Assembly (NCBI GenBank): GCA_022825825.1
Contig: JAJDWA010000022.1
Coordinates: forward strand, 62,001-126,000
Reading direction: 5' to 3'
From: Candidatus Poribacteria bacterium
Lineage (GTDB): Bacteria; Poribacteria; WGA-4E; WGA-3G
DNA: 64,000 bases
Shown here: in pieces, positions 11,156 through 24,446 of the stretch
How the letters are laid out: every line of letters starts with the position of its first letter
Position numbering within the stretch: position 1 is the stretch's first letter
Translations under genes and position numbers: made by a program
The notes under the pieces: model-generated
What the model was told of the DNA's origin: nothing
Databases searched by the model: none
The model's input: the letters and a program-made list of their open reading frames with translations, nothing else

Positions 11156-11886
11156 TGGGACAATTAGATGGAAAAGTTGCAATTGTTACTGGTGGCAATA
11201 GAGGAATTGGAAAAGGCATAGCGAAAGGATTTGCCGCCGAGGGCGCGAGTCTGACTATTGCCGCAAGAGATGCAGAATTATTGACGCAAACTGCTAATGA
11301 ACTGCGCGAAATGAATGTTAAAGTCCTTGCTGTTCCTACTGATGTTACTGATGAGGAACAAATTAAGGGACTCTTTGAAAAAGCGATGGCTGAATACGCA
11401 CGCTTAGACATCCTTGTTAACAATGCTGGTGCATTTGATGGGGGTCCGATTGATGAACTTTCAACGGAGGCGTGGGATAAAGTGATAGGTGTGAACCTTC
11501 GTGCGCCGTTCCTCTGTTCACGTGAAGCGGTGCGAATTATGAAGGAACAAGGTGAAGGCGGGCGTATTATCAACGTCGGTAGTATCTCTGCACACCGTGT
11601 ACGTCCGCGCAGTGCGCCTTATAGTGCAAGTAAATTCGGTATATGGGGATTGACGCAGGTAATAGCATTGGAAGGCAGACCACACGGTATCACGGCAAGC
11701 TGCTTGCAACCCGGTAACACTTATGTTGAACGGATTCAGAACCATCCGTTCCCTCCGTCTGAGCCGATGATGGAGGTTGACGAACTTGCTAAAGCTGCTG
11801 TCCTCATGGCAACGTTGCCACCTAACATCAATATGTTGGAGGCAACAGTTCTACCTGTCGGGCAGCTCTATGTTGGACGTGGGTAA
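11155..11886 (+). CDS. Short-chain dehydrogenase/reductase (SDR)
   Basis: 243 residues, classical SDR length. The cofactor motif TGGNRGIGKG lies at residues 12-21, NNAG near 89, the catalytic serine in NVGSIS near 142, and the YSASK catalytic Tyr/Lys pair near 156-160. It should oxidise or reduce an alcohol/ketone with NAD(P). The substrate cannot be read. Its start shares one base with the preceding stop, and a PhyH-family gene follows 43 bases later, so the three genes probably form one transcript, perhaps for degrading or modifying a small organic molecule. Confidence 0.92.
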   Translation: MGQLDGKVAIVTGGNRGIGKGIAKGFAAEGASLTIAARDAELLTQTANELREMNVKVLAVPTDVTDEEQIKGLFEKAMAEYARLDILVNNAGAFDGGPIDELSTEAWDKVIGVNLRAPFLCSREAVRIMKEQGEGGRIINVGSISAHRVRPRSAPYSASKFGIWGLTQVIALEGRPHGITASCLQPGNTYVERIQNHPFPPSEPMMEVDELAKAAVLMATLPPNINMLEATVLPVGQLYVGRG

Positions 11887-11929
11887 CGTTTACAATCAAA
11901 GCGTGCTGTTTACACATTGGAGAGGAATC

Positions 11930-13147
11930 ATGAAGGTAAATAGAACCCAATTCATGGAAGAAGGATATCTTGTCCTGCGAGAAGTTATTCCGCCTGACGA
12001 ACTGAACACACTTCGGGAAAGTTACGAGTTGATGGTGTCACGACAGCGCGACATCTGGACGAAAGAACGGCAACCCAACGATCCTCCTGGAGGTGTGTGG
12101 GAAACTTCAGCACAACCTCGTTTGAATCTCGGACGAGAACCGCTCGCTGGACTTGTAGATGAAAAAACCGCGAGTGTCATTGAAATTTGGGCACACGAAA
12201 ATATGCAAGGTGTCAGTAGCGAACTGATCGGTGTGGAGGATGCTGGTGTTACCGAAATGATGCTCATGTGTAATCCAGTAAGTGATCGGGGCCCTGCCGC
12301 TTGGCACCGCGACCACCACCCGATTGATACGGCACCGCTACAGGGTTACCTTGATGATATTGTTGAGACGGGGCCGCGCTACGTACAATGGAATCTGTCG
12401 CTCTATGACGATAGCGTGTTATGGGTTATTCCGGGTAGCCACCTGCGAGTGAACACAGATGAGGAAAATCAACAATTGTTGGCGGATCCGCGAATGCCTT
12501 TGCCCAATGGAGTGCAAACACATCTTAATGCCGGGGACGGTGTGGTTTATATTTTACCAATCTTACATTGGGGAAGTAACTACAGCCGTAAGATGCGCCG
12601 CACAATACATGGTGGGTTCTCAAACTTTACGCACTATCCAATCCTTGATTACATGGAGTATCTATCACCACAGGTACAAGAGATGTTTAATCGGTGGAAT
12701 AAGCGAAGTCATCAGATGCAAATGTGGACCGAATACGCACTTCAAGCTGTGATTCAAAAGAATGCCACCGCTTATCACACAGCGCTTGAAAAATTACACC
12801 CAAATAGAGGTGAGAAAGGAAAATTGTTATCTACAGTCTTTTTATGTAAAGCAGCCTGTTTTGTCGCATTAGCACATGGATGTGAACTTGAAGATATTCC
12901 CGATGATCTACGAAACCGTGGGAAAGGTTTTCATTCCATCACTCTTAATTGGGGACCACCCTTTGCCGAGGAACGTTTCACGCGGGAGGAAGCGGTTGTT
13001 CTTTGGGAAAGGTTTAAACCGCTTGACGCACTCCTGAAAACGGATGAAGAACATTTTTCGCCAGGTTTCCAATCAGGACCGATGCGATACTATTTCAATG
13101 AGATGCCGCCGAATTATAGTGTTTCAGATTTTATTGCAAGTTGGTAG
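11930..13147 (+). CDS. Phytanoyl-CoA dioxygenase (PhyH)-family oxygenase
   Basis: 405 residues from the ATG at 11930. An open frame extends further upstream, but GGAGAGGA at 11919-11926 fixes this start. The Fe(II)-binding facial triad is visible: His126 and Asp128 in AAWHRDHH, and a distal histidine in PILHWGSNYS. A PGSHL segment lies between. These enzymes use 2-oxoglutarate and O2 to hydroxylate diverse small molecules. The protein is longer than usual, with about 130 residues after the distal histidine. Substrate unknown. It is downstream of SDR and the DUF2064 gene. Three more family members lie in this window at 23694, 32958 and 47871. Confidence 0.88.
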   Translation: MKVNRTQFMEEGYLVLREVIPPDELNTLRESYELMVSRQRDIWTKERQPNDPPGGVWETSAQPRLNLGREPLAGLVDEKTASVIEIWAHENMQGVSSELIGVEDAGVTEMMLMCNPVSDRGPAAWHRDHHPIDTAPLQGYLDDIVETGPRYVQWNLSLYDDSVLWVIPGSHLRVNTDEENQQLLADPRMPLPNGVQTHLNAGDGVVYILPILHWGSNYSRKMRRTIHGGFSNFTHYPILDYMEYLSPQVQEMFNRWNKRSHQMQMWTEYALQAVIQKNATAYHTALEKLHPNRGEKGKLLSTVFLCKAACFVALAHGCELEDIPDDLRNRGKGFHSITLNWGPPFAEERFTREEAVVLWERFKPLDALLKTDEEHFSPGFQSGPMRYYFNEMPPNYSVSDFIASW

Positions 13148-14013: not shown

Positions 14014-14283
14014 CTATGATGATATTAACCGCATATATTCGTCGTGCTTTCCAATCCAAAACCAGAAGTAAGTTCCTTCTTTTTCAAAAGCAAGCGTTCG
14101 ATAGTTAATTCCTACTCTCACTGACCAATAAGTGTTAACCTTCTTAAAACCCAAAGATGGATGGCTCGGATTTTGTTTTAGGAGTTCAAAACTCTTATCT
14201 GCAAGTTGTTGGACAAAACGAGGAAGATTTTGGTAATGTTTCCGAAAACGTAGGGTTTTGACATGTTTTATATTTCTTCGCAT
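14014..14283 (-). CDS. RelE/ParE-superfamily toxin-like protein
   Basis: 89 residues, basic. Pattern of the RelE/ParE fold: an N-terminal strand, two helices (LPRFVQQLADKSFELLKQNP), HPSLGFKKV, then strands YWSVRVGINYRTLAFEKEGTYFWFWIGKHDEY. The conserved arginine (SVRVG) and the C-terminal WIGKHDEY strand match mRNA-interferase-like relatives. It overlaps the upstream antitoxin-like gene by 16 bases, so the two form a module. Whether it is active is unknown. Confidence 0.78.
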   Translation of the reverse strand: MRRNIKHVKTLRFRKHYQNLPRFVQQLADKSFELLKQNPSHPSLGFKKVNTYWSVRVGINYRTLAFEKEGTYFWFWIGKHDEYMRLISS

Positions 14284-14579
14284 TTGCCTGCCTGAAAATC
14301 AGCAAGTGCTTCCTCCGCGAAGTGGTCAAGTCTTCCAGCCTTTACGTCGTCTTCAAATTGCTTGTCCCACGTTTCTGCTTGGGTCTCATACATTTTTAAG
14401 ACTTTTCCAAACTCAATTGCTAATGTTTTTAGTAATTCTTCTCTCGTTCCTTGCTCGGCATTCACTTCTGGAAGTTCTTGTATCCACCCAATCCACCCTT
14501 CACCGTTTTTTTGAATGTGAAAGGTATAGGTCTCTCCAGGCCCTTGTTTTTGCGTTTCTGCGGTAAAAACTTTTTCCAT
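14268..14579 (-). CDS. Antitoxin-like protein partner of the RelE-type toxin
   Basis: 103 residues, acidic, directly upstream of the toxin gene and overlapping it by 16 bases. The N-terminal half (FHIQKNGEGWIGWIQELPEVNAEQGTREELLKTL) resembles the partial RNase-H fold of HicB antitoxins. The C-terminal part (WDKQFEDDVKAGRLDHFAEEALADFQAGK) is a helical tail of the kind that wraps a RelE/ParE toxin. A GGGAGG site precedes the ATG. The pair is a probable type II toxin-antitoxin module with a HicB-like antitoxin on a RelE-type toxin rather than a HicA one. Confidence 0.7.
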   Translation of the reverse strand: MEKVFTAETQKQGPGETYTFHIQKNGEGWIGWIQELPEVNAEQGTREELLKTLAIEFGKVLKMYETQAETWDKQFEDDVKAGRLDHFAEEALADFQAGKCEEI

Positions 14580-15389: not shown

Positions 15390-16736
15390 TTATACCCATG
15401 ACGATTTTAGTTCATGCACTTTCAACGATGCAAGTGTAGCAGCACCACCCTCAGCGTAAACCCCAATGTCAGCGTTGTCTAAATCTGGCAGGAAATAGGA
15501 AGTCATTGAGAGAGCCCCTGCATTACCGAACGCTTCAATAGAGATGCGATCAACTAAAATCTGCAACTGAATTTTACCATCTTGTGGGGCAAGGGGTCCG
15601 CTCCTTCCAAGGAAAGTTAATTGTTTTTCAGCGACATCGTATCGGACATCTTGACCACGAATATTGAAACCAACAGCGGTGGCATCATTCAATTCAATTT
15701 CTGCACGGATGTCAAAGAGTTCACCTGTCAATCCAGCAAGAAGGTTCTCATCGGGGTTAAGCGTAACGTTGCTCCATGCGTGCGTCCAGTTGTGGATATT
15801 TTCTATTTCTGCAACCGGTTCACGATGCAGACGAATCCCTTCTTCCGTCGTCCGAAGCGTTAACACACAAGGGAAACTCATCTGTTGATTGAAAGGCATT
15901 TCTGGTGGGTTACTTCCATTCATCCAAGCAATTTGAATTCGGCGACCGTCAGAGTCAGGAATGTCGCTCCAAGTTTGTGCAGCATAGAAGTTTGCACCAA
16001 AGTCTGCACGTTGCGATTCAGTATCTTGAATGAAGTTAGTGCCATCAAAATCACCGACATAATATTTGCCACCTGCTCCCCAGAAAACCCATTTGGTATT
16101 ATTAGGATCACCATCAACAGCAAGCTCAAAGAGATCCGGACATTCACCGTCTGGTATCTTGATATCAGAGAGACGTTCCCATTCCTTTAGATTTGTAGAT
16201 CCAAAAAAGGTAAAATCATTTCCATCAAGGAAAAGCGTCATCACCCATTTTTGTGTTGGTTCGTGCCAAATCACCTTCGGGTCACGATTGCTCCCAACGA
16301 TGTGTTCAATGACGGGATTACCTTCATATTTTGTCCAACTCCGTCCACGGTCATTACTATAAGCAATGCTCTGTGTAAACGGCACCTTTTCTGGTGCGTG
16401 GCTACCAGCAGAAGTATAAAATACCACAAGTACCGCCTCGTCACCTGTTTGGAAACCAGCAGTATTGTTATAATCCACTACCCCGGAACCCGAGAAAATA
16501 GTTCCAAGTTCATCAGGATGGATGGCGTGTGGCAGCTGCTTCCAGTGAACAAGGTCAGGACTAACAGCATGTCCCCACGTCATATTACCCCAGTTGATGC
16601 CGAAGGGATTGTGTTGAAAGAAGAGGTGATACTCTCCTTTGTAATATATCAATCCGTTTGGGTCGTTGGTCCAGTTGGTCTTAGGTGTAAAATGGTATTG
16701 CGGCCGATATGTTTCCTTGTAAGCAGTTTGAATCAT
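15390..16736 (-). CDS. Glycoside hydrolase family 32 enzyme (beta-fructosidase/levanase type)
   Basis: 448 residues. The three GH32 acids are visible: nucleophile Asp25 in WTNDPNG, transition-state Asp152 in RDP, and acid/base Glu198 in ECPD. The N-terminal five-bladed propeller is followed by a C-terminal beta-sandwich. It should cleave terminal or internal beta-fructosyl bonds in sucrose, inulin or levan. No signal peptide is seen, so a cytoplasmic enzyme is likely. AAGGAAGG precedes the ATG. No transporter or sugar kinase lies beside it. Confidence 0.94.
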   Translation of the reverse strand: MIQTAYKETYRPQYHFTPKTNWTNDPNGLIYYKGEYHLFFQHNPFGINWGNMTWGHAVSPDLVHWKQLPHAIHPDELGTIFSGSGVVDYNNTAGFQTGDEAVLVVFYTSAGSHAPEKVPFTQSIAYSNDRGRSWTKYEGNPVIEHIVGSNRDPKVIWHEPTQKWVMTLFLDGNDFTFFGSTNLKEWERLSDIKIPDGECPDLFELAVDGDPNNTKWVFWGAGGKYYVGDFDGTNFIQDTESQRADFGANFYAAQTWSDIPDSDGRRIQIAWMNGSNPPEMPFNQQMSFPCVLTLRTTEEGIRLHREPVAEIENIHNWTHAWSNVTLNPDENLLAGLTGELFDIRAEIELNDATAVGFNIRGQDVRYDVAEKQLTFLGRSGPLAPQDGKIQLQILVDRISIEAFGNAGALSMTSYFLPDLDNADIGVYAEGGAATLASLKVHELKSSWV

Positions 16737-17102
16737 TATCTATTCCTTCCTTTCGCAGGTAAGTGTGTCTCGTGGACACAAACAGAATTATGATTTATGG
16801 TCTATCTCTATTCCTCACGCTTTAATGGGGATTCTATACATGTTTCTTTATTTTGTCAAGAATACTTTGTTTAATATCAGTGAACATTTTATTGTCTTAA
16901 AATTGCAAATTTTTGTAAAATTAGGCAACCGTTTTGTCTGTTACCCGCGTCACTATATATTGAAATGAAGAAATTTCTCATTATTGCTCCTTTCTGAAAA
17001 AAGAGAGAGTACATTTTATTCTCATCAACCTATGAGCAAATCGTGAGGGACCGTATAACTAAAATCAAATTTTGACATTGTAAAGATAAGGAGAATTTTA
17101 AA
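16737..17102. other. Divergent intergenic region before the selenoprotein candidate
   Basis: 366 AT-rich bases between GH32 and the gene at 17103. It ends with an AAGGAG ribosome-binding site at about 17088. I see no convincing promoter pair, hairpin or small gene; a TTGACA at 17072-17077 lacks a matching -10. Confidence 0.5.
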
Positions 17103-18770
17103 ATGAAAACGTTAATTAGGGGTTGTCTTATTCTAATTTTAGTAAGTACCCCACTTTACGCGGATGTGAATTCCACACATACTGACAAAATCACGCTCAC
17201 TCTTGATAGTGGGCAAGAAGTAAATGTGAAAGGCTTTATTGCCCCAATAGGGGATGCCGTGTCCGATAATTTTAAAGAGTGGGATTCCTTGACAAATCTA
17301 CGGGTTGCAGAACCTGAGAAAAAGTATCCCGCATCGGTTTTCCAATCTTTTCTGCCGAACAAACCGGTTTCGGTTGGTGAACTCTGGGGAGTAAATACGG
17401 AAGGTGTTGTTACCTTGCTCAAGCAGCTACATCCGAATCCAAATCTGTTTTTGCACATCAATGCGGGTGATTCTCTCGGTTTATGGGCGTGCCTACGTGC
17501 CTACAACGATAAGTTTGCTGACATCGTGTTTCGTATCCATGCCGAATTTGTCCTCAAAGATGGATGGTTTACACCCTCACAATTTACTGGACATCTGGTT
17601 ATTGACCGAATCGAAGAGAAGGTCACTTTTTTTGAGATGTACATCCCTGAAGGCACGATAAACTTTGATGTCAATAGAAAATTACATGGAATGCGTATTT
17701 CAGGAACAGGCTATTGCTCGCAAATGGAACTCCGAACTGGAACGAAAGATTTTCTGGAAAACGTCAAGTTTTCAGAATCCATTACCCAAAAAGCGGCTGA
17801 ACGTGCTTTGATACTACGCTTCTATAAATCGCAGCAAATCAATTGGGTGCATCCGGACCAAGTGTTGGAGATGTCAAAAGCACTGCAAAAGCCGATTCAG
17901 GCTATCTCCATAGATGGACCGTTGGTTGATGAGTCGTGCTGAGGGAGCGGTAAAACCCTGAGGGCAGTTGTCCTCTCTAATGACCGAGTCATCAAGTTTT
18001 TGAACGAAAATTTTATCAATACTTGGGTGTCAAATGTTGAATTAGAACGTACACCTTCTAAGAAAGTCTTTATTGCGCTGAGACAGCAACAGGGATTTAA
18101 ACCGTTTGATAAAATGCATCCGTTGGCACAGGCGATTATGAAAGGGTGGAAGAAACGTTCACCAGCGGATTCTTTGGTGCTATCACCGAAACTGGAACTG
18201 ATGGGTAAATTACCTGTCAACGAACGGAGCGCGCCATACAACGGGGCAAAGGGTTACCTTTTATTTCTCAAGGATGCCTTAGATGGTAAAATGCCCGGAT
18301 TGAATGAGGATATCCTGAAACCTACAAAAACAGATTGGGGGACGCTCCTCGAATCTGGTGCTGTCGTAGATGATGGCTTGACAGTTGTGCTTACCAATGA
18401 GAGACCCGAACAAGAGGTACTTAGTGTTTTTCGGGCATCTGACTACACTATCGTAGAAATTGATGTGACTGCCTATAAAGACGGCGGTTTGCTCACTATT
18501 GATGTCTGGGTTGGGGATGCCGAAATTGCTGGGTCGTTTGATCTGTTTTCTGGTCATACACAACGTGCTGTGGAACTCGCACCTGACAACGCGCTTGCCT
18601 CTGCAAGGAATATTCTTCCAGACGAAAGGAAAACAATCACGTATCGTTTTAACAAGGGACAAGTCTTCAAGTTAGGTGCTATTGGGAATTCCAGTGAGAA
18701 GGCGAAAATCAATGGATTTCTTGCTAATGTTTCTGTTAAACCTACACCACAACAAAAGGATGAACAGTAA
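17103..18770 (+). CDS. Predicted exported thioredoxin-like selenoprotein with in-frame TGA at codon 280
   Basis: A frame opens at the ATG at 17103 behind an AAGGAG and meets a TGA at 17940-17942. The same frame continues open for 275 more codons to 18770. If TGA is read as selenocysteine the product is 555 residues: a signal peptide (about 1-20), an unrecognised domain to about 200, then SIDGPLVDESC-U-GSGKTLR, a Cys279-Sec280 pair followed by VVLSNDRVIKFLNENFINTWV. That pattern (redox pair, then a helix and FINTWV strand) is thioredoxin-fold-like. The codons just after the TGA code a continuous conserved-looking segment with no start codon before 18000. Residues about 430-550 match the C-terminal domain of the next gene, an ECF sigma factor. 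A SECIS-like hairpin follows the TGA. The alternative is two separate proteins, or a base error turning TGC/TGT/TGG into TGA. Confidence 0.65.
17940..17975 (+). promoter_or_regulatory. In-frame TGA and bacterial SECIS-like hairpin
   Basis: The TGA at 17940-17942 is followed, 17 bases later, by GAGGGC (17960-17965), a loop AGTT (17966-17969) and GTCCTC (17970-17975). The stem is 6 bp with one G-U pair. The loop starts 23 bases after the TGA and has a G in its second position, which fits the published bacterial SECIS rules (loop 16-37 bases downstream, G in the first two loop bases). Confidence 0.5.
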
Positions 18771-18845: not shown

Positions 18846-20171
18846 ATGAAAAATGGCGATGTTGAACTGATTCTGAGTGTCCTTGATGGTGACCAAAGCG
18901 CTTTTACCAAACTGGTGCGAAAATACCAGAAACCGATTCACGCGCTTGCATGGCAGAAAATAGGGGATTTCCACATCGCAGAAGAGATTACCCAGGATAC
19001 CTTCCTGAAGGTCTATCAGAAACTGGCAACGTTGAAAGATCCAAATCGGTTCGCCGGATGGCTTTATAGAATTGCCGCCCGCCAATGCCAAGCGTGGCTG
19101 AGAAAAAAACGGATGCAGACGCAATCGCTTGAAGATACGGATACCAAACAGATAGAAAAAATGACGTATTCTCAATATGTTGCCGAAGAGCGGGCGAAAG
19201 CGGCGGCAGAAGCACAACGCGATATTGTCCATAAATTGCTTGCACGGTTACAAGAGAATGAACGTACCGCCATTACACTCCATTATTTCGGAGAAATGAC
19301 GTGTGAAGAAATTAGCCGTTTTTTAGGTGTATCGCCAAGCACTGTTAAGAGTCGGCTTCGGCGAGCGCGGCTCCGCTTAAAAAAAGCGGAACCTATGATC
19401 CGAGAAGCGTTAGAAGGTTTCCAAATTAAAGCGAATCTCACTGAGAATATCATGAAAGAAATCCCACGTATCAAACCCGAAACGCCTTCTGGAAGTAAAC
19501 CATTTGTGCCGTGGGCAATCGCTGCTTCAACTGTTGTTATCGTTATGGCGATGCTGGGAATAGGTAATCAATATTTATCTCGCTTCCAACAACCTTACAA
19601 CTTTGATGCAACATCCGAGATGACGGTGGAGATTATTGACGCGCCTATTGTTCTGGATACTACTTCAAAACCGAATGTGCGGACTCAACAAGGTAAATCT
19701 ATGGTACCCAGTAAAGGGGACAGTCTTACCCTGAACGCAACTCAACCGGAATATGTAACGAGATTTCTCTCCGCACAGGCAAAGAACATTGTCCTCAACG
19801 ATGATAAACCTTCACAAGATGTATTGAGCATTTTCCGAACACCGACAGCAGGCTATCAAGATTATACTGTGGTTGAGATTGATGCAACAGCATTTAGAGA
19901 TGGTGGGACCCTCACAATTGATATTCAGGTAGGGAGTGCCGAGGCTGCCGGTGCGTTTGTGCTGTTTGAGAACGAGAACGAACTCTCCATAGGAGAAATG
20001 CCCAAGACTATACTTACTGCAGCGTCTGGAATTCCAGGCGGTAAAACAGGGAGAATTGCATATCGTTTTGAACAAGGCACAACCTTCTTGTTAGGATCTA
20101 CCGGCAAGTCGTTTAGTGGGAAAGGGAAGGTCAATTCTTTCCTCTCGAGAATTTCTATAGAACCTGAGTGA
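18846..20171 (+). CDS. ECF sigma factor with transmembrane segment and C-terminal domain shared with the upstream gene
   Basis: 441 residues, far longer than a plain ECF sigma (about 180). Sigma region 2 lies at about residues 17-80 (AEEITQDTFLKVYQKL) and region 4 at about 125-175 (EISRFLGVSPSTVKSRLRRARLRLKK). A hydrophobic segment WAIAASTVVIVMAMLGIG near 224-241 follows. The last 120 residues (QDVLSIFRTP...DYTVVEIDATAFRDGGTLTIDI...) are clearly homologous to the end of the upstream thioredoxin-like protein. The likely topology is sigma domains inside and sensor-like domain outside, so the protein could be a membrane-tethered sigma. GGAGG at 18835 sets the ATG. No separate anti-sigma gene is seen nearby. 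Confidence 0.85.
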   Translation: MKNGDVELILSVLDGDQSAFTKLVRKYQKPIHALAWQKIGDFHIAEEITQDTFLKVYQKLATLKDPNRFAGWLYRIAARQCQAWLRKKRMQTQSLEDTDTKQIEKMTYSQYVAEERAKAAAEAQRDIVHKLLARLQENERTAITLHYFGEMTCEEISRFLGVSPSTVKSRLRRARLRLKKAEPMIREALEGFQIKANLTENIMKEIPRIKPETPSGSKPFVPWAIAASTVVIVMAMLGIGNQYLSRFQQPYNFDATSEMTVEIIDAPIVLDTTSKPNVRTQQGKSMVPSKGDSLTLNATQPEYVTRFLSAQAKNIVLNDDKPSQDVLSIFRTPTAGYQDYTVVEIDATAFRDGGTLTIDIQVGSAEAAGAFVLFENENELSIGEMPKTILTAASGIPGGKTGRIAYRFEQGTTFLLGSTGKSFSGKGKVNSFLSRISIEPE

Positions 20172-20283
20172 GCAAAGAAAAATGAATATTAACGTTAAAA
20201 AATACCAAATCTGGGACATACGCTATGGTCCCTATCTATATGGATGGGTGTATACTTAATCTTTAAATCAAAAGGATAAAAAA

Positions 20284-21378
20284 ATGAAAATAACGAAATT
20301 AGTACATTTTATGCTTCTCTTAACTGTTGCCGTCTTCCTGGTGGACGGTTTTACGCAGGATTTACCCACGGGTGCTATAGCACGCATTGACATAGGTGAG
20401 GGACCTGTTAATGCTATTGCATATTCTCGATCCGAAAATCGGATCGCAGTGGCAGCTGCAGAAAATATTCACATCTACGATGCAAGCACCTATAAAAAAC
20501 TTACGGTGTTTAACGGACATACCGATTTGGTATTAGCACTTGCCTTTTCTCCGAACGGCAAATTTCTTGTGAGCGGTAGTTTGGACAAGACAGCGCGTTT
20601 ATGGAATATAGACTTAGGAAAACTCATACACACTTACAAAAAACATACAGGATCTATCAATGCTGTTGCTTTTTCAACAAAGGGGGAGAAGTTTAAGAGT
20701 GGTAGTAACGAACATGCGGATGTTTGGTATTTGTATTTGGACCATCTCAGATCAGGGAAAAGTGGTAGTTACATGCCTACGAACAAATTCACTGCCACAG
20801 CATTCTCTTATGCAGGTGAAATAGAAGCACGAGCGTTCGACAGCGTATCAGTTTTGGATGATACCTTAGTTAAGCTCTTATCAGAAAACGGAAGAAAAAT
20901 TGAGAAGAGCATTGTTTTCCTTGAGAGTTCGGATAGGGCTGGTTTCTTGTCTGCACATACAGCTTCGGTTAATGTCCTGACCCTTTTTGCAAAAGGAAAA
21001 ATCCTTGCAACCGGAAGCGTAGATAAGACAATTCAGTTATGGAATGCAAACACCACTATTAACACCACTACTCACATCACTAAACCGCTACACATTCTTT
21101 CAGGACATACCGGGGGCATTGCTGCTATGGACTTCTCAGTGAACGGTAAACTTCTTGCCAGTGGGGGTTCGGATAAAACGATTCGACTATGGGATGTCGC
21201 AACTGGACAGCATCTGCATACGTTTACGGGGCATACGGGTGAAATTGGCGCGGTGACATTCTTGGGAGACAAAGCACTTGCCAGGACAGCATTTGCTAAA
21301 GATAAAGCACTTGCAAGCGGAAGTTCAGATGGCACAGTTATCATCTGGGATCTGGGTAAAGTTATTCCAAATGATTAA
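20284..21378 (+). CDS. WD40-repeat protein with signal peptide
   Basis: 364 residues. An N-terminal signal-like segment (MKITKLVHFMLLLTVAVFLVDG) suggests export. WD40-type blades are seen, e.g. LVSGSLDKTARLWN, LATGSVDKTIQLWN, LASGGSDKTIRLWD and ASGSSDGTVIIWD, at about residues 85-360. Two middle blades are degenerate. A beta-propeller scaffold is expected, with no enzymatic motif. It follows the ECF sigma gene on the same strand by 112 bases and may be regulated with it; that is inference. Confidence 0.85.
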   Translation: MKITKLVHFMLLLTVAVFLVDGFTQDLPTGAIARIDIGEGPVNAIAYSRSENRIAVAAAENIHIYDASTYKKLTVFNGHTDLVLALAFSPNGKFLVSGSLDKTARLWNIDLGKLIHTYKKHTGSINAVAFSTKGEKFKSGSNEHADVWYLYLDHLRSGKSGSYMPTNKFTATAFSYAGEIEARAFDSVSVLDDTLVKLLSENGRKIEKSIVFLESSDRAGFLSAHTASVNVLTLFAKGKILATGSVDKTIQLWNANTTINTTTHITKPLHILSGHTGGIAAMDFSVNGKLLASGGSDKTIRLWDVATGQHLHTFTGHTGEIGAVTFLGDKALARTAFAKDKALASGSSDGTVIIWDLGKVIPND

Positions 21379-23693: not shown

Positions 23694-24446
23694 ATGGATA
23701 TCACCGAGGCACAAAAGAAGCAATTAGATGAGCAGGGATGTATCGTCATTCCAGATGTGCTTTCCGATGAAGAAATCGAGATGTACAGAGCCGATATTCT
23801 TCGGTTAGCAGAGCAAGAAAAGCAGGATGGTTCTGCACTTCGCCATACCGATGGATACGGCCAGCATGTGCGTTGGTTGATGAACAAAGGCAAAATATAC
23901 GAGAAACTCGTTGCACACCCGAAGGTGATGCCTTTCTTTGAACATCTGCTCGGCACGGATTACACATTAAGCACTCTCACCTCTAACATTATTGATCCGG
24001 GGGCTTCTGATGGAGGATACCATGTTGATAGTGTTTTAGGCGGCATGCCAGAACCGCTGCCCAGTTTTCCGGTGGTCGCCAACAGCCTCTGGTTACTTAA
24101 CGATTTTACGCCAGAAAACGGCGGCACACGCCATGTACCGGGTATTCATCGTCAACAGATAAAACCGCCCCCTGGCACCACATACCACCCCGACGAAGTG
24201 CGTCTCTCTGCACCGAAAGGCTCTGTATTTCTGTTCAACGGGGCAGTCTGGCATTCAGCTGGTGCTAACAAAACTGATCAGCAGCGCATAGCACTTATCT
24301 GTTTCTGTTGCCGGTCTTTTATCAAGCCGATGTTTGACTTTGTGCATTATCTTGAATCAGAGGCACTTGAACGTGCTACCCCAACAATGCGTAGGATATA
24401 TGGGTTTGATTCCCAACCAAGACCGCCAGATAAACCTAAGCAGTAA
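23694..24446 (+). CDS. Phytanoyl-CoA dioxygenase (PhyH)-family oxygenase
   Basis: 250 residues. Iron ligands are visible as HVD in GGYHVDSV and the distal histidine in AVWHSAGANKTD, followed by an arginine (RIALI) that would bind 2-oxoglutarate. An RHVPGIHRQ segment lies between. It is the compact, typical-length version of the family. The substrate is unknown. It is preceded by AAAGGA and starts at ATG 23694. Confidence 0.87.
   Translation: MDITEAQKKQLDEQGCIVIPDVLSDEEIEMYRADILRLAEQEKQDGSALRHTDGYGQHVRWLMNKGKIYEKLVAHPKVMPFFEHLLGTDYTLSTLTSNIIDPGASDGGYHVDSVLGGMPEPLPSFPVVANSLWLLNDFTPENGGTRHVPGIHRQQIKPPPGTTYHPDEVRLSAPKGSVFLFNGAVWHSAGANKTDQQRIALICFCCRSFIKPMFDFVHYLESEALERATPTMRRIYGFDSQPRPPDKPKQ

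Follow-up and report, generated by a model that had tools for sequence, protein, structure and literature searches.

A probable selenocysteine-only redox protein family with a DsbH-like thioredoxin fold in Candidatus Poribacteria

An open reading frame of Candidatus Poribacteria that continues through an internal TGA is best read as the gene of an exported redox selenoprotein, in which a Cys-Sec pair is carried on a DsbH-like fold. A probability of roughly 0.85 is given to this reading as a whole; the redox mechanism is inferred, with no biochemical or proteomic data behind it. The decoding of the TGA as selenocysteine (Sec) is close to certain on comparative evidence, the presence of selenium in the protein being itself an inference without proteomic data. 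The new points are a Sec-only, expanded protein family, a C-[UxxG] active site within a DsbH-like fold and a sigma-factor partner that shares the C-terminal domain of the selenoprotein.

The gene lies within a 64,000-nucleotide stretch of DNA, referred to here as the window (GenBank assembly GCA_022825825.1, contig JAJDWA010000022.1, positions 62,001 to 126,000). The assembly amounts to 5.1 Mb in 75 contigs. The coding sequence (17103-18770, + strand) specifies 555 amino acids with one Sec, at the TGA of codon 280, and ends with a TAA stop at 18768-18770. A Shine-Dalgarno-like GGAG (17090-17093, +) is seen in the sequence 9 nt before the ATG at 17103. The frame holds a single in-frame TGA (17940-17942), preceded by TGC, and this Cys279-Sec280 pair occupies 17937-17942 (+). 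There are 275 sense codons 3′ of the TGA (17943-18767), of which the TTG at 18000 is the first ATG, GTG or TTG. The first 20 residues (MKTLIRGCLILILVSTPLYA; 17103-17162, +) form a predicted signal peptide, based on the sequence, a low-confidence N-terminal helix in the AlphaFold2 (AF2) model and a similar leader in homologues of the subgroup. Export of the window copy is therefore likely, as inferred from sequence. An earlier sequence-only reading had proposed a selenoprotein here, and its coordinates for the frame, the TGA, the 275 codons, the TTG at 18000 and the hairpin all held exactly. The selenoprotein interpretation also held, with Sec machinery, homologues and hairpin conservation all in its favour. 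Its signal peptide held for the window copy, which is predicted to be exported, and many paralogues were found to lack one.

All four genes of the Sec machinery, selA, selB, selC and selD, are present in the genome of the window, which favours Sec. Profile matches place selA on contig C75 (530 bits), selB at C66:23249-25144 (352 bits) and selD on contig C51 (372 bits). The tRNA-Sec (C66:23125-23214, 78.7 bits) has the anticodon TCA and is located 35 nt from selB. The selD gene contains an in-frame TGA of its own. This SelD (L047, G000:C51:57412-58338) is itself a Sec protein with the motif KCAGUASK, and its TGA is taken to be at the position where selenoprotein SelDs carry Sec. Across the phylum, selB scores above the cut-off in 60 of the 65 genomes that hold the family, and the five without it are just 73-83% complete.

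Downstream of the TGA, a hairpin with the sequence GAGGGC-AGTT-GTCCTC (17960-17975, +) has the form of a bacterial Sec insertion sequence (bSECIS). It begins 17 nt after the TGA and has a 6-bp stem, a 4-nt loop (AGTT) with G at loop position 2, a spacing of 23 nt and a folding energy of -7.7 kcal/mol. The published bSECIS rule asks for a loop of 3-9 nt, a stem of 4-16 bp, a G within the first two positions of the loop, a spacing of 16-37 nt and a minimum free energy of at most -7.5 kcal/mol (PMC13188914); the hairpin of the window meets every item. The folding energy of the 50-nt stretch is unremarkable (z = -0.38), and approximately 4% of synonymous-codon randomisations of this gene alone do equally well. 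As the energy by itself is uninformative and the one-gene null is met at about 4%, the weight of the argument rests on the comparison across the family. The rule is fitted by 101 of 105 unique family segments, against 4.1% of synonymous-codon randomisations. In the family alignment, synonymous variation drops most strongly at around codons +4 to +11 after the TGA, and is normal at codons 5′ of Cys279 and 3′ of the hairpin. Leu+11 is CTC in 85/85, Arg+7 uses AGG or AGA only, and Gly+9 is GGT in 54 of 55. Among the 31 segments that share a register, the stem is paired in 100% of cells compared with 47-74% in slid register, with 12 two-sided compensatory cells against 3.3 in shuffles. The third base of the Arg AGG/AGA codon covaries silently with its pairing partner. 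It is thus very likely, from the synonymous constraint, compensatory changes and rule fit, that the hairpin is under RNA-level selection, and the hairpin first proposed for the single gene holds as a conserved family feature. Variants with GAG..GAGCTC and GGGTCCGC were considered as broken hairpins in a fixed register. This was rejected, since shifted hairpins of 6-7 bp form instead (GAGGGC-AGTTGA-GCTCTC and GAGGGCG-GGTC-CGCTCTC).

Homologues are found in 65 of 85 Poribacteria genomes, with between 1 and 13 copies per genome, and nearly all of the full-length homologues examined contain exactly one internal TGA. The named relatives are all Candidatus Poribacteria metagenome-assembled genomes. 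Beyond the phylum, the comparison extends only to the 80 top-scoring loci from a single scan; viral contigs and plasmids were also searched as homes of relatives, and none were found there. About 110 distinct copies were collected, and codon 280 is TGA in 108 of them, with one GGA and one Ser codon as the exceptions; neither TAA nor TAG was seen at this position among the family homologues. A strict DNA pattern that combines the motif with the hairpin was run over the 85 phylum genomes and totalled from the per-genome table. It returned 323 TGA sites in the same 65 genomes, and none for the reversed-pattern control. A further six sites carry another codon (GGA in three, GGC in two and TCA in one), while TGC, TGT and TGG were not found at the Sec codon with the same motif in any of the 85 genomes. 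The residue at position 280 is thus Sec nearly throughout, with no Cys and no conserved stop. A sequencing error at the TGA is excluded because independent assemblies of 65 species genomes carry the family. The Gly and Ser copies (G037:C82:176654, G061:C115:5003, G055:C636:11156, G056:C10:76589, G075:C102:42414 and G079:C2:8557) may represent paralogues that do not need Sec, or that are decaying or non-redox. Very likely, this is a large Sec-only family of the sponge-associated Poribacteria, apparently uncatalogued, with no Cys form in 85 genomes.

Were the TGA a true stop, the locus would encode a 279-aa protein and a separate gene starting from the TTG at 18000 or later. In support of this, TGA does serve as an ordinary stop elsewhere, for example at the end of the next gene, and codon +20 is ATG, GTG or TTG in 83 of 105 family members. 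However, the remaining 22 have no start codon at +20, and TAA or TAG never substitutes for the TGA. The pooled pN/pS ratio is 0.34 for codons 5′ of the TGA, 0.27 at codons +1 to +5, 0.39 at +13 to +19 and 0.39 at +20 to +44. Gly+3 is invariant with all four GGN codons in use, and Ile+17 is conserved with all three of its codons. The low ratios, together with the free codon choice at Gly+3 and Ile+17, indicate protein-level selection in the start-less stretch 3′ of the TGA (codons +1 to +5 and +13 to +19). In the AF2 model the TGA also falls within a single folded thioredoxin domain, and both the Sec machinery and the SECIS hairpin are present. A true stop is all but excluded, although re-initiation at codon +20 to yield a separate C-terminal chain remains formally possible in those 83 members. 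A second alternative, that the TGA is read as a standard amino acid such as Trp, would also account for the clearly continuous frame. Against it stand the absence of a TGG or TGY form of the motif from 85 genomes, the presence of a UCA tRNA-Sec with SelA, SelB and SelD, and a hairpin that conforms to the SECIS rule and shows RNA-level selection. This alternative can likewise be all but dismissed.

The AF2 model, run with Sec entered as Cys, has a pLDDT of 87 over its full length and of 91 within residues 27-405. It contains three domains after the signal peptide, so that the layout is refined beyond the sequence-only reading by an extra N-terminal domain and a C-terminal beta-sandwich. The beta-rich N-terminal domain (aa 27-228; 17181-17786, +) carries the nearly invariant Cys130 and Cys205 (62 of 68 A1 members), and has no solved-structure match among the hits examined. 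The thioredoxin-like, DsbH-type domain (aa 229-400; 17787-18302, +) is supported by AF2, Foldseek and hhalign. Its Foldseek matches are DsbH (2ju5, E 6.6e-5), a Thioredox_DsbH domain protein (7tkv), and AGR3 and ERp19 (3ph9, 1sen). The C-terminal beta-sandwich (approximately aa 424-548; 18372-18746, +) is PPC/GOLD-like in the AF2 model and by Foldseek (3jqw, TMt 0.65; 7rrm, 0.70; 5azx, 0.73). It also occurs in another, unidentified 845-aa frame of the same genome (G000:C17:79343-79720). In one divergent member (L081 643-2454, -), a Redoxin/AhpC-TSA domain (E 4e-22) replaces the beta-sandwich at the C-terminus.

Sequence searches are far less informative on the fold. The window protein has no Pfam match above the cut-off, and none to PF03190; among 68 members, 7 match PF03190 weakly, with a best E of 0.0083, and none reaches the gathering cut-off. 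There is no match to NCBIfam at E <= 1. The matches of the window protein to ACT_5 and Calmod_bind_C in Pfam are below cut-off and were dismissed. Against PDB sequences, the full profile returned nothing beyond marginal matches (interferon-gamma, E 0.04), dismissed as chance, and the profile of the thioredoxin domain returned none.

The position of Sec was resolved by profile-profile alignment. A second family of Poribacterial selenoproteins (L191-L202, e.g. G000:C67:26749-27069) is DsbH-like, with a UGWC motif and an in-frame TGA. A possible hairpin, CGGC-TGGAT-GCCG, follows that TGA at the equivalent place. The window family aligns to these proteins by hhalign with an E of 1.1e-9. In the aligned columns Sec280 corresponds to the Sec of UGWC, Gly283 to the resolving Cys and Cys279 to the residue before Sec. 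Gly283 is invariant in A1 and Cys279 is present in 68 of 68 members. The active site is therefore C-[U-x-x-G], in which the nucleophile is retained, the resolving Cys is missing and a vicinal Cys is present. Sec280 likely occupies the site of the nucleophile in a thioredoxin fold of the DsbH type, as predicted by the model and the alignment. The original claim of a thioredoxin-like Cys-Sec motif holds in refined form: Sec is at the first CxxC position, the second is Gly, and Cys279 is a relocated partner, the pairing being inferred.

The window family resembles DsbH/Thioredox_DsbH (PF03190, DUF255), AGR2/AGR3 and ERp19 in predicted fold. It differs from DsbH/PF03190 in having C-[U-x-x-G] in place of CxxC, as well as the extra N-terminal domain and the C-terminal beta-sandwich. 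The UGWC proteins (L191, L193, L196) occur in the same genomes with Sec aligned to Sec280, but keep the resolving Cys in the ordinary UxxC pattern of Sec-thioredoxins. They have mostly Ser or Trp where the window family has Cys279, are shorter at around 300-400 aa, and no sandwich was seen in them. A 2026 catalogue lists 119 prokaryotic selenoprotein (sub)families (PMC13188914), among which no counterpart was found by Sec motif or domain. The thioredoxin-like UxxC and CU-motif selenoproteins (SaoC, SaoL, KCU-star and MbdU; PMC13188914) share a Sec in a redox motif, the CU motif and a downstream bSECIS; in contrast to the catalogued families, the window family is unlisted and no Cys form was found in the phylum. 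Mammalian thioredoxin reductase ends in Gly-Cys-Sec-Gly, with a vicinal Cys-Sec selenenylsulfide couple. Its fold and the position of the couple differ from those of the window family, and no homology is claimed. No paper joining Poribacteria with selenoproteins was found in the open-access literature searched, preprints and subscription papers being outside the search.

UGA 17940 is read as Sec by SelB and tRNA-Sec under the direction of the hairpin at 17960-17975, as the comparative evidence shows. In the proposed mechanism, Sec280 would sit at the N-terminal, nucleophilic CxxC position of the DsbH-like fold, with Cys279 replacing the lost resolving Cys (Gly283) as its partner. The working couple would then be a vicinal Cys-Sec dithiol/selenenylsulfide, its position given by alignment and its chemistry inferred. 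The N-terminal domain, with Cys130 and Cys205, and the beta-sandwich would likely hold the targets, of which disulfides or peroxidic groups may be reduced or exchanged; substrate and reductant are inferred only. Without the canonical resolving Cys, the protein need not follow a classic thioredoxin cycle. A conceivable, if unlikely, alternative is that Cys279 and Sec280 serve to bind metals or metalloids (mercury, arsenic, copper or selenium species) rather than to carry out disulfide chemistry, in a family for sequestration or detoxification. Vicinal CU motifs are found in SaoL (MerB-like), SaoC, MbdU, HgcA and a CopZ-type protein (PMC13188914). The loss of the resolving Cys and the existence of Gly and Ser paralogues are also compatible with binding, and the tandem amplification recalls a dosage-driven binding protein. 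Against this are the DsbH/thioredoxin fold with Sec at the catalytic position, the Redoxin fusion known in one member and the lack of metal-transport neighbours at the loci examined. The redox reading remains preferred.

Immediately downstream of the selenoprotein is an extracytoplasmic function (ECF) sigma factor gene (18846-20171, +). It encodes Sigma70_r2 and r4_2 domains (Pfam), a hydrophobic segment (FVPWAIAASTVVIVMAMLGIG) and then a beta-sandwich, and ends in an ordinary TGA stop. The sandwich (window 19782-20186) is 45% identical to that of the selenoprotein (E 2.6e-27), and the order of selenoprotein followed by sigma factor is kept in about 25 loci. The beta-sandwich part of the sigma factor is inferred to be extracytoplasmic, which is likely. 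ECF sigma factors with C-terminal extensions likewise carry sigma2 and sigma4 with an appended domain (PMC8999054); unlike those types, the extension here is a hydrophobic segment with a domain of the adjacent selenoprotein. On the main reading, this sigma factor would probably sense the same ligand or partner and control the locus, an inference from domain sharing and synteny only. It is also possible that the exported members serve mainly as the input of a signalling pair, with the shared beta-sandwich relaying the redox state of Cys-Sec to the sigma factor. Such a pair is supported by the conserved adjacency, by the shared domain and by the hydrophobic segment that separates the sandwich from the sigma domains in 18846-20171. 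Against it, the array of cytosolic tandem paralogues that was examined has no sigma gene, and no anti-sigma partner was identified. The signalling pair is compatible with the main explanation of an exported redox selenoprotein.

A WD40 beta-propeller protein (20284-21378, +; Pfam) is encoded after the sigma factor. A second array in the genome, on contig C25, consists of four overlapping tandem copies without a signal peptide, from which it follows that some branches of the family are exported and others cytosolic. A WD40 gene, identified by its visible repeats, follows this array too (L049 11018-12955). PADLOC returned nothing for the selenoprotein, and its matches to the neighbours only reflect sigma and repeat domains. 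Other genes of the window were assigned by eye. Upstream is a GH32-like gene (15390-16736, -), which recurs in 13 related loci. Two adjacent small genes (14014-14283 and 14268-14579, -) have the look of a RelE/ParE-type toxin and its partner, and PhyH-like dioxygenases are seen at 11777-13147 and 23694-24446.

For most families of bacterial selenoproteins Cys relatives are abundant, and methods of prediction depend on them. By the account of its own authors, deep-Sep may miss selenoproteins without Cys homologues (PMC12013277), a limit consistent with this family being overlooked. As a Sec-only, uncatalogued and lineage-specific expansion of 323 sites, its genes are expected to be split at the TGA by standard annotation. 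A bolder reading, considered unlikely, is of a Sec-obligate multigene system with up to 13 copies in exported and cytosolic arrays. Here, the vicinal Cys-Sec protein would share a recognition domain with an ECF sigma factor anchored in the membrane, and the two would form a selenium-dependent module for redox sensing and response in sponge life. SelA and SelB have been reported to co-occur in sponge-symbiont bins (PMC5649159), and the selA and selB genes to be enriched in sponge symbionts. If true, the module could explain this enrichment, as far as Poribacteria are concerned. Independently of the module, the family offers a concrete reason, within Poribacteria, for the reported co-occurrence of SelA and SelB, and provides a natural case in which Sec seems irreplaceable.
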